DNA of 64,000 bases from Arthrobacter zhaoxinii (GTDB taxonomy: Bacteria > Actinomycetota > Actinomycetes > Actinomycetales > Micrococcaceae): NCBI RefSeq assembly GCF_024385505.1, contig NZ_JANFLT010000001.1, forward strand, positions 434,001 through 498,000, given 5' to 3'. The notes under the pieces are model-generated. The model saw only the letters and a list, made by a program, of their open reading frames with translations. It was not told the DNA's origin and ran no database searches. This document shows, one piece after another, positions 14,172-62,515 of this stretch (position 1 is its first letter; each line of letters opens with the position of its first letter). The position numbers were made by a program, and so were the translations under genes.

Positions 14172-14360
14172 GGGTCCCTGTTCTCTCTTGTTCTCTAAAT
14201 CTGAATGTCTCGGGTGCGGAAAAGATTGAAGGTGACCCACCCCGGGTCCGTCGGACGGTTCGGGTTAGGCGGCTTTAATATTCCAGCGAGCTCTGCGAGC
14301 TAGGAATTTCGTTGCCGCCGTTCCGAACCGCCCGACGGACTCCCCGGGCGGATCTACCAG
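14172..14360 (-). other. rpoB-rpoC intergenic region with a large hairpin
   Basis: This 189-bp gap is within the rpoBC transcript. It folds into one long imperfect hairpin from 14247 to 14341. Outer arms pair GTCCGTCGG...CGGTTCGG with CCGAACCG...CGACGGAC, then GGCGGC with GCCGCC, then ATTCC with GGAAT, then GCTC with GAGC around a GCA loop. The inner 52 nt are a copy of the repeat described at 14269-14320. Confidence 0.8.
14269..14320 (-). repeat. Structured 52-nt dispersed repeat, copy A
   Basis: Read on the minus strand (the rpoBC mRNA), this copy begins GGCGGCAACGAAATTCC and ends GGAATATTAAAGCCGCC, with GCTC-GCA-GAGC at the tip. Copy B at 62351-62402 matches at 48 of 52 positions. All four differences lie in the upper internal loop. 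The three stems and a 6x6 internal loop (AACGAA opposite ATTAAA) are identical. I do not recognise the family. Confidence 0.85.
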
Positions 14361-17300
14361 CTAAACCTCTTCGACGGAGCTGGGCTCTGCACGGGACAGA
14401 TCGATACCCAGTTCCTCCGCGGCCCGGAAGACTTCTTCATCCGAGTCACGCATTTCAATCGTGTTGCCTTCGGTGGAGAGGACTTCCACATTCAGGCAGA
14501 GCGACTGCATTTCCTTGATCAGGACCTTGAACGATTCCGGAACGCCGGGCTCCGGGATGTTCTCGCCCTTGACGATGGCTTCGTAGACCTTCACGCGGCC
14601 ATGGATGTCATCAGACTTGATCGTGAGCAGTTCCTGCAGCGTGTAGGCAGCGCCGTACGCTTCCAGGGCCCAGACTTCCATCTCACCGAAGCGCTGGCCG
14701 CCGAACTGTGCCTTACCACCCAGCGGCTGCTGCGTGATCATGGAGTACGGTCCGGTGGAGCGTGCGTGGATCTTGTCGTCCACCAGGTGGTGGAGCTTCA
14801 GGATGTACATGTAGCCGACCGAGATCGGGTCCGGGAACGGCTGGCCGGAGCGGCCGTCGTACATCCGGGCCTTGCCCGAGGCACCGATCAGGCGGTTGCC
14901 GTCACGGGTCACGTTGGTGGAGTCGAGCAGGTTGATGATCTCGTCCTCGCTGGCACCGTCGAACACCGGGGTGGCAACCGTGGTGGGACCGGTCTCGCGG
15001 GGCAGGTTCGGCAGGTCTTTGACCCAGTCCGGCTCGCCCTCGATCTTCCAGCCCTGCTTCGCAGCCCAGCCCAGGTGGATTTCCAGGACCTGTCCAACGT
15101 TCATTCGGCCCGGAACACCCAGCGGGTTCAGGATGATGTCGACGGGGGTTCCGTCTTCCATGAACGGCATGTCTTCGATCGGGAGGATCTTGGAGATGAC
15201 GCCCTTGTTGCCGTGGCGGCCGGCCAGCTTGTCGCCGTCCGTGATCTTGCGCTTGTGCGCCACGTAGACGCGGACCAGCTGGTTGACGCCCGGGGGCAGC
15301 TCGTCGTCGTTGTCGCGGTCGAAGATGCGGACGCCGATGACGGTGCCGGACTCGCCGTGGGGAACCTTCAGGGAGGTGTCGCGGACTTCGCGGCTCTTCT
15401 CGCCGAAGATGGCGCGCAGCAGGCGCTCTTCCGGGGTCAGTTCCGTTTCACCCTTCGGGGTGACACGGCCAACCAGGATGTCGCCTGCTTCAACCTCGGC
15501 ACCGATGTGGATGATGCCGCGCTCGTCGAGCTGCGAAAGCACCTCTTCGGAGACGTTGGGGATGTCGCGGGTGATTTCCTCGGCACCAAGCTTGGTGTCG
15601 CGGGCGTCAACCTCGTGCTCCTCAATGTGGATGGAGGTCAGGACATCGTCGGAGACCATGCGCTGGGACAGGATGATGGCATCTTCGTAGTTGTGGCCTT
15701 CCCATGACATGAATGCCACGAGCAGGTTCTTACCAAGGGCCAGTTCACCCTGGTCCGTTGCGGGACCGTCGGCGATGATGCTGTTGACCTCAACCCGGGC
15801 ACCTTCGGAGACCAGCACGCGCTGGTTGTAGGCGTTGCCCTGGTTGGAGCGCTCGAACTTCATGATCGGGTAGCTGGTCTCGGTGCCGTCGTCGTTCATG
15901 ACGGTCACGATGTCAGCGGAAACCTCGGTGACAACACCGGGCTTCTTGGCGGTCACGGAGTCGCCGGCGTCAACTGCGGTGTACTTCTCCATGCCGGTGC
16001 CCACGACGGGGCGCTCGGAACGGAGCAGCGGCACAGCCTGGCGCTGCATGTTCGCACCCATGAGGGCACGGTTGGCATCGTCATGCTCGAGGAACGGGAT
16101 CAGGGCCGTAGCCACCGACACCATCTGGCGCGGGGAGACGTCCATGTACTCGACCTCGTTGGGTTCAACGAGGACGGGCTCACCGGAGCCGCCGCGGGCA
16201 CGGACGAGGACGAGGTCCTCGGCGAAGTGCTGGTCGGCGCGCAGCGGGGCGTTTGCCTGGGCAATGGTGCGCTCAACTTCGTCATCGGCGGTCAGGTAGT
16301 CGACCTTGTCGGTGACTACGCCTTCCTCGACCTTGCGGTACGGGGTTTCGATGAAGCCGAAGGCGTTGATGCGGCCGTAGGAAGCCAGCGAACCGATCAG
16401 GCCGATGTTCGGGCCTTCAGGGGTTTCGATGGGGCACATACGTCCGTAGTGGGACGGGTGCACATCTCGGACTTCCATGCCTGCACGGTCACGGGACAGA
16501 CCGCCCGGGCCCAGTGCGGACAGGCGGCGCTTGTGCGTCAGACCGGCCAGCGGGTTGTTCTGGTCCATGAACTGCGAGAGCTGGGAGGTTCCGAAGAACT
16601 CCTTGATCGCAGCAACCACGGGACGGATGTTGATCAGGGTCTGCGGCGTGATGGCCTCGACGTCCTGGGTGGTCATCCGTTCGCGGACCACACGCTCCAT
16701 ACGGGACAGGCCCGTGCGGATCTGGTTTTCGATCAGTTCGCCGACGGCGCGGATACGGCGGTTGCCGAAGTGGTCGATGTCGTCGACCTCGACGCGGATG
16801 TCCACGTCGGCACCGTTGCGCTTGCCCGGAACCGTCTTCTCGCCGGCGTGCAGTGCCACGAGGAACTTGATCATGGCGACGATGTCGTCATTGTTCAGTA
16901 CCGAGGCGTCGGAATCCGTCAGGGGCTTGTCGATGCCGAGCTTGCGGTTGATCTTGTAGCGGCCAACCTTGGCCAGATCGTAGCGCTTCGGGTTGAAGTA
17001 CAGGTTGTCCAGCAGCGTCTGGGCAGCCTCGACCGTGGGCGGCTCGCCCGGACGGAGCTTGCGGTAGATGTCCAGCAGGGCATCTTCGCGGGTTTCCGTG
17101 GGGTCCTTTTCCAGGGTGGCCCGGATGGAGTCGTATTCGCCGAAGGTCTCGAGGATCTGGCCTTCGGTCCAGCCCAGTGCCTTGAGCAGCACGGTGACGG
17201 ACTGCTTGCGCTTGCGGTCCAGGCGGACGCCCACCTGGTCACGCTTGTCGATTTCCAGTTCGAACCATGCACCGCGGGAAGGAATGATCTTCGCGGTGTA

Positions 17301-17861
17301 GATGTCCTTGTCGCTGGTCTTGTCAGCGGTGCGCTCGAAGTAGGCGCCCGGGGAACGGACCAGCTGGGAAACAACAACACGCTCGGTGCCGTTGATGACG
17401 AACGTTCCCTTGTCTGTCATGAGGGGGAAGTCGCCCATGAACACGGTCTGCTGCTTGATCTCACCCGTGTTGTTGTTCATGAATTCGGCTTTAACGTACA
17501 ACGGGGCCGAGTACGTAGCGTCCCGGTCCTTGCACTCCGCCATGGTGTACTTCGGGTCGGCAAACTCCGGCTCCGAGAAGCTCAGGGACATGGTGCCCTG
17601 GAAGTCTTCAATCGGGGAGATTTCCTCGAAGATGTCGGCCAGGCCGGATGTGGTGGCAATACCCTGTTCGCCGGTCTCCCGCGCCTTTTCAACGCGCGCC
17701 TTCCAGCGCTCGTTGCCGACGAGCCAGTCAAAGCTGTCCGTCTGCAGGGCAAGAAGATTGGGAACGTCAAGCGGTTCGTGAATCTTTGCGAATGAAATCC
17801 GGGAAGCTGCGTTCTCCGGATTAGTAGCGGTTTCGTTATTAGAGGTGCTCGAGGCGACCAA
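14361..17861 (-). CDS. rpoB: DNA-directed RNA polymerase subunit beta
   Basis: Second-largest RNA polymerase subunit, 1166 residues. The start chosen is TTG (then [13 protein letters not shown]), because GGAAGGA lies 6 nt before it; a GTG five codons upstream has no usable ribosome site. The rifampicin region reads [17 protein letters not shown] followed by [13 protein letters not shown], with the wild-type histidine and serine at the common resistance positions, so no resistance change is visible. Conserved C-terminal motifs such as [24 protein letters not shown] are present. rpoC follows on the same strand. Confidence 0.98.
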
Positions 17862-18367
17862 GAGGGATCCTTCCACAGACCTTCAGGCGTGTTTCACGCC
17901 TCCTCCCCTGCACAATGCGGACCGAGTCCGTGTGCGTCCCTATGTCCGGCGTGCGGCACATCCACAGGTTGCGGATACTGCCCGGCACGGAACGAAGCCC
18001 ACCGCTATATGAAGGCTGAAGGTTAACAGGAGGAAGCAAATATCCACTATAGGGCATTATGGGCAGACAAGTCTACCCGGTATTTGAACCCTGCTTCGCT
18101 CAACCCCTCCAAACGGAGGTTCCCGGGTGGGGATCCAGTCTCGGATCCCGGCAATCGATTCCCGGTCAAGGGGGAGCTACAGGCAACACCGGCGTACCGT
18201 TTCCGCATCGGATACAGATACCTTACCGCACAACGGGGCTTTTATGCTTGCCGGGGCGGTGTGCGGCGCCGCCGCCCTCTGTGACGGCGCTCTCCCCGGG
18301 GCTCCCGGGTTGGCGTAGCCTTATCCGTGTCTTCAATGACGAATACAACGACGAAAGCGACCCACGA
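17862..18367. other. Divergent promoter region between rpoB and a thiolase gene
   Basis: No gene is supported in these 506 bp. Toward rpoB there is a leader of nearly 200 nt ending in the GGAAGGA site, with a possible -10 box at 18046-18051. Toward the thiolase there is a possible -10 (TAGCCT, 18316-18321) followed by a tiny 11-codon frame at 18336. The rest shows no repeat or RNA gene that I can identify. Confidence 0.6.
18046..18051 (-). promoter_or_regulatory. Possible -10 box of the rpoB promoter
   Basis: TATAGT on the minus strand, about 185 bp before the rpoB start, is the best -10 match in the region. The -35 position carries only GACTTG/AGACTT, a poor match, so the call is tentative. 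Confidence 0.35.
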
Positions 18368-61264: not shown

Positions 61265-62302
61265 ATGTCCTTCACCGCCGCTGCTCCAGTGCGGTCTGTT
61301 CCAGCACCGTCTGTTCCGCTGCAACACGTTCCTGCGGCTCGGGATTCCGGCGCATCCGGCCCTGCGGGCCTGGTGCGTTACTGGGACTCCCCCGCCCCCT
61401 ACTGCCTGCAGACCTCGCTGCGCATCCTGGTCCGCGGCAAGCAGGATCCGACCATCCGGCTCGGACCGGGCATTGCCTGGCTGACCTTCCTCACCCCGGA
61501 AGGCCCGGCCACCCTGAACCTGCGCGAGGAACCCGTGCCCGCCCCCGGTGCCCGCGTCCGTGCCTCCGCCTGGGGGCCGGGTGCCGAGTGCGCCCTGGCG
61601 TCGGTGCCCGCGCTGCTCGGTGAACAGGACGACTGGTCGGAGTTCGACGACGCCGCGTTCCTCGCGACGCTGCCCCGGATGGTCACGGAGACCCGACGGC
61701 GGAACCTCTCCCTGCGGCTGCCAAGCACCGGCCGTATCATGGACACCCTGATCCCGGTGGTGTTGGAACAGAAGGTGACCGTGCTGGAGGCCTACTACGC
61801 CTGGCGCTACCTCGTGACGCGTTACGGCGTGGACGCCCCCGGCCCGGCACCGGCAGGCATGAAGGCCGCGCCGGCACCGGAAACCTGGCGGCGGATCCCC
61901 AGCTGGGACTGGCACCAGGCACGGGTAGACCATTCCCGGTCCACCACCATCCTGCGGGCCTGTTCGCAGGCGTCGGCGCTCCAGCGGCTGGCGGACGCTC
62001 CCCTGGGCGAGGATCTGACCGCCAAGCTGTGTTCGGTTCCGGGGATCGGAGTGTGGAGTGCAGCGGAAATCACGCAGCGGACGCACGGGGCTCCGGATTC
62101 GGTGTCCGTGGGCGATTACCACTTGGCCGCGTATGTGGGCGCCGCCCTGACCGGACAGCGCACCGACGACGCCGGCATGCTGAAGCTGCTCGAACCCTGG
62201 CAGGGACACCGGCAGCGGGTGGTGCGGATGATTATGCTCAGCGGCTACCGCAAACCCACCTACGGACCCAAGCTCGCCCCGATGGACCATCGGCGGCGCT
62301 GA
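61265..62302 (+). CDS. AlkA-type DNA glycosylase (HhH-GPD)
   Basis: The 345-residue product carries the helix-hairpin-helix and Gly/Pro/Asp loop of base-excision glycosylases: LCSVPGIGVWSAAEITQRTH followed by SVSVGDYHLAAYVG, in which the aspartate is the catalytic residue. The upstream part (LPSTGRIMDTLIPVVLEQKV) matches 3-methyladenine glycosylase II. It is expected to remove alkylated bases. An N-terminal stretch of about 40 residues is variable. It is divergent from cbs, and a copy of the 52-nt repeat lies 49 bp after the stop. Confidence 0.87.
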   Translation: MSFTAAAPVRSVPAPSVPLQHVPAARDSGASGPAGLVRYWDSPAPYCLQTSLRILVRGKQDPTIRLGPGIAWLTFLTPEGPATLNLREEPVPAPGARVRASAWGPGAECALASVPALLGEQDDWSEFDDAAFLATLPRMVTETRRRNLSLRLPSTGRIMDTLIPVVLEQKVTVLEAYYAWRYLVTRYGVDAPGPAPAGMKAAPAPETWRRIPSWDWHQARVDHSRSTTILRACSQASALQRLADAPLGEDLTAKLCSVPGIGVWSAAEITQRTHGAPDSVSVGDYHLAAYVGAALTGQRTDDAGMLKLLEPWQGHRQRVVRMIMLSGYRKPTYGPKLAPMDHRRR

Positions 62303-62333
62303 GGGTTCGTGCCCGGCGCTGAGGTGATCCCGG

Positions 62334-62350
62334 GACCCGGGGCCCGGGTC
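62334..62350. repeat. 17-bp palindrome beside repeat copy B
   Basis: GACCCGGG-G-CCCGGGTC is a perfect palindrome ending one base before repeat copy B begins. It could extend the hairpin or act as a strong separate stem. Its purpose is unknown. Confidence 0.6.
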
Positions 62351-62402
62351 GGCGGCAACGAAATTCCACGCTCGCAGAGCTCACAGGAATATTAAAGCCG
62401 CC
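62351..62402 (+). repeat. Structured 52-nt dispersed repeat, copy B
   Basis: This copy begins GGCGGCAACGAAATTCC and ends GGAATATTAAAGCCGCC on the plus strand, 48 of 52 positions identical with copy A at 14269-14320 (minus strand). It lies between the converging alkA-type and acyl-CoA synthetase genes, downstream of the glycosylase in the sense direction. Confidence 0.85.
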
Positions 62403-62404
62403 TC

Positions 62405-62515
62405 CTCCGGACCCCTCCCCCGCGAATGCCGACTCCGTCCCGCTACCTCTTACTCCCGCTTACTCCCGCATACCCGGTTCCTCCCGCCTCCTCCCACATA
62501 CCCCGCATCCTCCCG
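62405..62515 (-). repeat. G-rich purine tract downstream of the acyl-CoA synthetase gene
   Basis: On the minus strand this 111-bp stretch directly after the stop codon contains at least eight GGG blocks in a degenerate GCGGGAG pattern. It could form a G-quadruplex or be a degenerate tandem repeat. No gene is seen in it. Confidence 0.55.

Follow-up and report, generated by a model that had tools for sequence, protein, structure and literature searches.

A palindromic element noticed as two near-identical repeats in a 64-kb stretch of DNA from Arthrobacter zhaoxinii (the window) belongs to a dispersed repeat family, of which 19 copies were found in the same genome and others in all 29 genus genomes and in four further genera; this bears out the preliminary description, in which a dispersed RNA element or palindromic repeat family had been proposed. 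Dispersed intergenic palindromes are an already known kind of element, while the family itself looks undescribed. The reading favoured here, which is given about an even chance, is that the element may act as a transcribed 3' or intercistronic stem-loop that sets mRNA ends or stability, is copied within genomes, and has arms in which pairing is maintained in part by DNA template switching. This reading is preferred on account of the position of the copies, their bias toward the sense orientation, and the occurrence of other hairpins at rpoB-rpoC.

Direct comparison of the two copies in the window (Table 1) revealed 48 identical positions out of 52, as had been claimed, and the four mismatches (copy positions 18, 19, 33, and 35) are indeed confined to the upper loop. 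Both copies are also sense relative to the upstream gene, according to gene calls that, here and below, come from an in-house gene finder (its codon model having been trained on the window itself) and not from an annotation. Copy 2 had been placed correctly, while copy 1 had been placed one base too high. The fold that had been described is possible in both copies, but complementary arms that were no part of that description extend the hairpin outward on each of them. The rpoB-rpoC copy has a predicted folding energy of -86 kcal/mol, with a z-score of -8.1 against shuffled sequences; copy 2, the flanks of which are very GC-rich, folds no better than its shuffles (z -1.2, with 25 of 200 shuffles equally good). 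The gene upstream of copy 2 matched no Pfam family at E <= 0.001.

Table 1. Positions in the window of the two element copies, their parts, and the neighbouring genes.
Feature	Position	Strand	Basis or remark
52-nt core, copy 1, rpoB-rpoC gap	14268..14319	-	Exact pattern and covariance model R1, 82.6 bits
Copy 1 outer stem, 5' arm (TCCGTCGGGCGGTTCGGAAC)	14320..14339	-	Pairs with 3' arm
Copy 1 outer stem, 3' arm (TAACCCGAACCGTCCGACGGA)	14247..14267	-	Pairs with 5' arm
Copy 1 AACGAA, 5' strand of conserved asymmetric internal loop	14308..14313	-	Alignment A3
Copy 1 AUUAAA, 3' strand of conserved loop	14274..14279	-	Alignment A3
rpoB, upstream of copy 1	14361..17876	-	Own gene finder; stop codon 41 nt before core
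rpoC start codon	14169..14171	-	96 nt past copy 1 core
52-nt core, copy 2, 3' of alkA-type gene	62351..62402	+	Exact pattern and covariance model R1, 80.6 bits
Copy 2 5' arm region, weakly paired, GC-rich	62328..62350	+	Arm comparison, folding
Copy 2 3' arm region	62403..62425	+	Arm comparison, folding
Copy 2 AACGAA loop strand	62357..62362	+	Sequence, alignment A3
Copy 2 AUUAAA loop strand	62391..62396	+	Sequence, alignment A3
alkA-type gene (label of the preliminary description), 48 nt upstream of copy 2	61373..62302	+	Own gene finder

An exact two-arm pattern occurs at eight places in the 3.51-Mb genome, against none for the reversed control pattern. A covariance model (R1) built from seven of these copies, the eighth being identical to one of the seven, detected 19 full copies in the same genome (E <= 4e-7), as well as one half copy, palindromic in sequence, at C1:595931 (E 0.009); the copies are far beyond chance. 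Each of the 29 Arthrobacter genomes holds 2 to 21 copies (E <= 0.001), and 49 of 295 Micrococcaceae genomes match (E <= 1e-4), representing 5 of 32 genera, with 24 of the 49 belonging to Arthrobacter itself. The four further genera are designated g5, g8, g19, and g32. In g32 the element is present in 35 of 38 genomes, exactly two copies being found in 23 of the 35. When ten relatives were rechecked with a wider model, six carried the element and four (two of g8 and two of g32) did not. At the level of the order, 8 of 396 genomes matched, all of them in genera g1 and g32, in a coarse search that scored the best 14 candidates per genome under strict filters, missed known members in g5, g8, and g19, and is no proof of absence. 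A loose-pattern scan of named contigs led to tests of 80 out of 115 stretches, 33 of which hold a copy by R1 and 47 none; all of the 33 positive loci are among the listed stretches titled Arthrobacter or Paenarthrobacter. Many of the sampled copies are orthologues, and the counts are not independent of one another. The possibility that only two copies exist and that relatives lack the element, which had been raised at the outset, does not hold, and the search of the genome and of the Micrococcaceae by covariance model that had been recommended yielded more copies, compensatory changes in the stems, and a nearly invariant loop.

The 52 nt first described form a real tip, but the whole unit is larger: they are the upper part of a hairpin of about 95-100 nt, the outer arms of which pair and vary from copy to copy. 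This size is based on paralogues of one subtype in the genome of the window, in which similarity reaches about 20-25 nt past the core and then drops to background. From the outside inward, the hairpin appears to consist of a variable outer stem, a GC clamp, a conserved asymmetric loop, a short variable stem, and a replaceable tip. The nearly invariant parts are the clamp, GGCGGC/GCCGCC with the variants CGGGCC/GGCCCU and GGGGGC, and the asymmetric loop, in which AACGAA lies opposite AUURAA. The apical hairpin varies, being GCTCGCAGAGC in most Arthrobacter copies and GGCCGCGGGCGGCC or quite different elsewhere, and the GCTC/GAGC tip pointed out in the preliminary description, although present in both window copies, is not general, other genera carrying different tips. 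In five copies of the same genome (C1:711663, C6:687623, C5:348190, C5:861450, and C5:700367), short stretches that adjoin the 5' arm upstream or sit within it are tandemly repeated two or three times, in a manner resembling replication slippage at a hairpin.

Pairing of the arms is copy-specific: in a test of 5' arms against the 3' arms of all copies, the copy's own partner was among the best 5% in 67 of 86 non-redundant copies. Of the cells in an alignment built from 99 matches, with 86 distinct rows, 97.5% are paired, compared with 34-47% when the partner is slid, and double changes occur in 104 cells, distributed over 12 of 17 pairs, figures that come from an alignment fitted to the covariance model and favouring the structure. 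Four of five covariation measures beat all 500 shuffles in an earlier alignment of 74 distinct rows; the fifth, for further pair types, did not, 357 of the 500 shuffles being as high. Compensatory helix changes and a conserved loop, the combination by which a structured RNA is recognised, are thus both found. The loop was counted in A3, a covariance-model alignment of 93 loci chosen for spread (L389, which is without the loop, was omitted), and not in the set of 188 copies described below, the loop counts of which are biased by a search pattern that itself requires ACGA and TT[AG]AAG. In A3, ACGA is present on the 5' loop strand in 86 of 86 distinct rows and AUURAA on the opposite strand in 75 of 86. 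Because some rows drop or change the first A of the AUURAA strand and two rows show UA for AU, that A may be a bulge, with two A-U pairs lengthening the inner stem, a register only slightly favoured over a rival one that scores almost equally.

Placement of the element is mostly sense and 3' of genes. In the genome of the window, 18 of 19 copies lie 31-136 nt past the stop codon of a sense gene. A wider set comprised 188 distinct copies, namely 189 pattern places minus a chance match in a coding region (L022), and did not include loci L379-L389. In this set, 168 copies have a sense gene directly upstream, and the distance from stop codon to core has a median of 47.5 nt, with quartiles of 37 and 76. 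Tandem contexts contain 77 sense and 15 antisense copies, 8 of the latter being situated at rpoB or grpE. Three of the 188 copies fall between called divergent genes, compared with 8 of 34 window gaps of at least 60 nt, a depletion for which P is 0.0016, a rough figure, when 48 site groups are counted. By nearest gene ends, the copies form 43 groups, a few of which represent doubtful short frames, and 5 copies stand outside any group. Most of the newly fetched copies from g5, g8, and g19 are again behind a sense gene; exceptions are L382, one of the two copies from g19, which runs antisense to the gene on either side, and L061, the rpoB copy from g8, which is inverted. A tRNA beside the copy at C6:318324 was rejected, as ARAGORN finds none there. 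At another locus (L003 1300-2514; G000:C1:628827-630041), the roughly 1.1-kb gap from a trkA-type gene to proC contains two converging copies, and between them a second repeated motif, GATCTACTGAGCAGATAACGGGGTTAT, occurs twice along with a partial inverted version.

The rpoB-rpoC and grpE-dnaJ gaps are, to judge from the sequences compared, old intra-operon sites of the element that are shared across genera. Among the 29 Arthrobacter genomes, the rpoB-rpoC gap contains a sense copy in 20, an inverted copy in 2, and none in 7, where a simple GC hairpin is found instead; the element is present in this gap in g8 and g32 as well. In the grpE-dnaJ gap (GrpE was identified by PF01025 and DnaJ from its start as read in the sequence), 24 copies were found in g32, 2 of them inverted, and L291 and L385 are g8 copies. 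Inverted copies account for 6 of 26 at rpoB-rpoC and 2 of 24 at grpE-dnaJ. A strong hairpin, defined as -31 kcal/mol or lower for the gap, is present in 26 of 30 Micrococcaceae rpoB-rpoC gaps, 7 with the element and 19 without it, and absent from the other 4; these 30 gaps were best query matches from 80 genomes searched and are not a random sample. In two other genera (L371 and L377), long stem-loops of different appearance fill rpoB-rpoC gaps of 184 and 277 nt, and are possibly parallel elements. The rpoB-rpoC gap of the window also contains, at 14181-14211 on the minus strand and ending 9 nt before the rpoC start, a 31-nt sequence (GAGACATTCAGATTTAGAGAACAAGAGAGAA) that is identical in 29 of 29 Arthrobacter genomes, in contrast to the highly variable rest of the gap. 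Sequences resembling it are present in other genera, and the segment is read as a conserved rpoC leader.

A position behind genes would also suit an element that is mainly a terminator or attenuator without a U-tract, complete at operon ends and partial in the rpoB-rpoC and grpE-dnaJ gaps. The sense 3' placement, often ahead of a convergent gene or a long gap, agrees with such a role, as do the very stable stem at rpoB and the simple GC hairpin that relatives carry in place of the element. However, two of the oldest sites are intra-operon, and the nearly invariant internal loop is not needed for termination. Furthermore, the 12 nt past the outer stem contain TTTT in 5 of 181 copies and TTT in 17 of 181, with a mean of 2.7 T versus 2.0 in flanking controls. 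A canonical intrinsic terminator with a U-tract is rejected on the TTTT count, and the version without a U-tract is considered unlikely.

Neither the two window copies nor five other loci matched an Rfam 15 family above the gathering cut-off, in agreement with the earlier failure to recognise the family, and a known RNA family was rejected, tRNAs elsewhere in the window being the only features to pass these cut-offs. The element is not named in the best-ranked matches from the open-access literature, a scope that excludes most subscription papers. The passages of RepRanger consulted give REP-candidate counts for one other Arthrobacter species and name no such element (PMC12306157), and those of a paper listing high-GC genomes have no Arthrobacter among them (PMC2267715). 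Several described families are comparable in kind. ERIC/IRU (127 bp) and YPAL/RU-2 (168 bp) are reported as dispersed intergenic palindromic MITEs of enterobacteria; ERIC is co-transcribed with its neighbours and has an orientation-dependent effect on the stability of adjacent mRNA, and YPAL is not A+T-rich, is without TA ends, and has targets that span or adjoin dyads (PMC2229807). NEMIS/Correia elements of Neisseria, of about 107-155 bp, have TA ends and target duplications according to the same source, which also gives cleavage by RNase III as the proposed fate of their stem-loop transcripts (PMC2229807). The Arthrobacter element can be likened to these MITEs, by description only, as a palindromic unit of about 95-100 nt, against some 100-200 bp for that type, with 19 intergenic copies. 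Unlike ERIC and YPAL, it occurs in another host phylum, is placed almost only 3' of genes at sites kept across genera, and combines variable arms with an asymmetric loop that is nearly fixed; no target duplication was seen at the one site compared and, in a further difference from NEMIS, no TA ends. REP and REPIN sequences are predicted to form hairpins in ssDNA or mRNA, and the distribution of REPINs over extragenic space is described as random (PMC3116915). The element shares with them the form of a dispersed extragenic hairpin unit, but differs from REPINs in being located 3' of genes and in the same operon gaps across genera, and no Y1 transposase was found in the genome of the window. In the malE-malF gap, a REP sequence is proposed to serve as an intercistronic stabiliser; the Arthrobacter element may resemble it, by analogy of position, as an intra-operon stem-loop proposed to protect the upstream message. 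What sets the family apart from the described kinds is the combination of the same operon gaps across genera, a near-fixed asymmetric loop between freely changing stems, and no RAYT detected in the genome of the window or target duplication at the one site compared.

These comparisons bear on a second alternative, that the element is a selfish, non-autonomous mobile palindrome of the REPIN, ERIC, or YPAL type, directed at 3' hairpins and without function for the host. Consistent with this, copy number ranges from 2 to 21 between species, paralogue similarity is unit-like, copies occur in close pairs, the alkA-type site of copy 2 is lineage-specific (6 of 29 Arthrobacter genomes), and YPAL is reported at targets spanning or adjoining dyads (PMC2229807). 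On the other hand, identical sites are kept across genera, and at the one site compared, the alkA-type site, neither a clean empty site nor a target duplication was seen, the element-free flanks being too diverged or rearranged. A search of the genome of the window, limited to Y1/RAYT transposases, found none (0 of 1, with controls positive in 5 of 14), on the basis of which a REP/RAYT system was rejected; the known transposon end that the preliminary description had named as another outcome likewise gained nothing from this search. Phages gave no match to one copy and viral contigs none to the exact pattern, while plasmids queried with one copy gave a single 26-bp match (E 0.3) inside a coding gene, attributable to chance; a phage, plasmid, or viral origin was rejected on these searches. 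Taken as a whole, selfish spread with no host function is regarded as doubtful.

The changes within the stems provide information on the molecule in which pairing is maintained. Core helices contain 7 G-U and 12 A-C mismatches among 1409 cells (85 of 86 rows, the palindromic half copy being omitted), and in the outer arms of the 86 non-redundant copies the ratio of G-U to A-C is 37:29, 32:20, and 17:16 as the rule is tightened. Pairing is held at the Watson-Crick level with no clear preference for sense RNA, and because there is no clear wobble excess, sense RNA pairing is not clearly the selected property. The stems show many double changes and few G-U steps on one side alone. The near absence of G-U intermediates, the lack of a clear sense wobble excess, and the existence of some inverted copies count against a pure RNA reading; the loop is intact in the inverted copies, the mRNA of which would contain the complementary sequence. 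Reports on template switching between inverted repeats describe homogenised arms and an inverted spacer (PMC8604942; PMC8794818), and the process might account for the double changes, for the copies in inverted orientation, and for the self-complementary loop of the half copy. This half copy (G000:C1:595931-595974; L054 4325-4368) is a perfect palindrome with AACGAA opposite TTCGTT, a product expected of template switching. Because template switching should erase an asymmetric loop, survival of the loop would imply that selection acts on it. A site in DNA for a topology protein behind transcribed genes has been proposed in the case of BIMEs and gyrase. It is improbable that the active form of the element is DNA, whether a cruciform or a double-stranded site of two half-sites for a nucleoid or topology protein behind transcribed genes: Watson-Crick pairing in which neither strand shows a clear excess of wobble, and the tolerance of inverted copies, would fit this, but a sense bias of 168 of 188 is unexpected for a DNA site, and the missing wobble is also explained by template switching (PMC8794818).

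According to the preferred reading as a transcribed stem-loop, the element would be part of the mRNA, either in the 3' tail behind a gene or in the spacer that separates two operon genes, as its position alone would lead one to expect, and would then fold. The stem-loop in the mRNA may block 3'-to-5' exonucleases, as 3'-end stem-loops are reported to do (PMC7509114), or may mark a point of processing or partial termination. The upstream cistron (rpoB or grpE) would in this way gain stability or be set apart from its downstream partner (rpoC or dnaJ), and at operon ends the element would leave the message with a stable 3' end. A putative protein, either a ribonuclease or an RNA-binding protein, probably docks at the conserved loop. 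The unit would be copied onto new 3' ends inside one genome, and its arms would be kept complementary largely by template switching of DNA polymerase, which would also account for the occasional inverted copies. Counting against the transcribed stem-loop are the 7 Arthrobacter genomes without the element at rpoB-rpoC, the 4 of 10 rechecked relatives without any copy, the fold of copy 2, which shuffles equal, and the one covariation measure that did not exceed its shuffles.

A more specific proposal, offered tentatively and with somewhat low expectation, is that a putative dedicated protein of Arthrobacter and its relatives reads the bulged loop, ACGA-A / (A)UURAA, and might set rpoC:rpoB and dnaJ:grpE output. 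With copies following as many as about 20 genes in an Arthrobacter genome, the element would constitute a 3'-end regulon, with template switching rewriting the arms and sometimes flipping the element.

Palindromic repeats scattered over a genome are usually regarded as random insertions or as selfish DNA. A single family that several genera retain in the same gaps of two basic operons, and that in one genus has also reached many gene ends, may provide a natural series on how a repeat becomes a regulatory part. Its two-sided stem changes, with almost no G-U intermediates, would make it a good test case for template switching as a maker or keeper of hairpins, and serve as a warning that covariation alone is no proof of RNA function.
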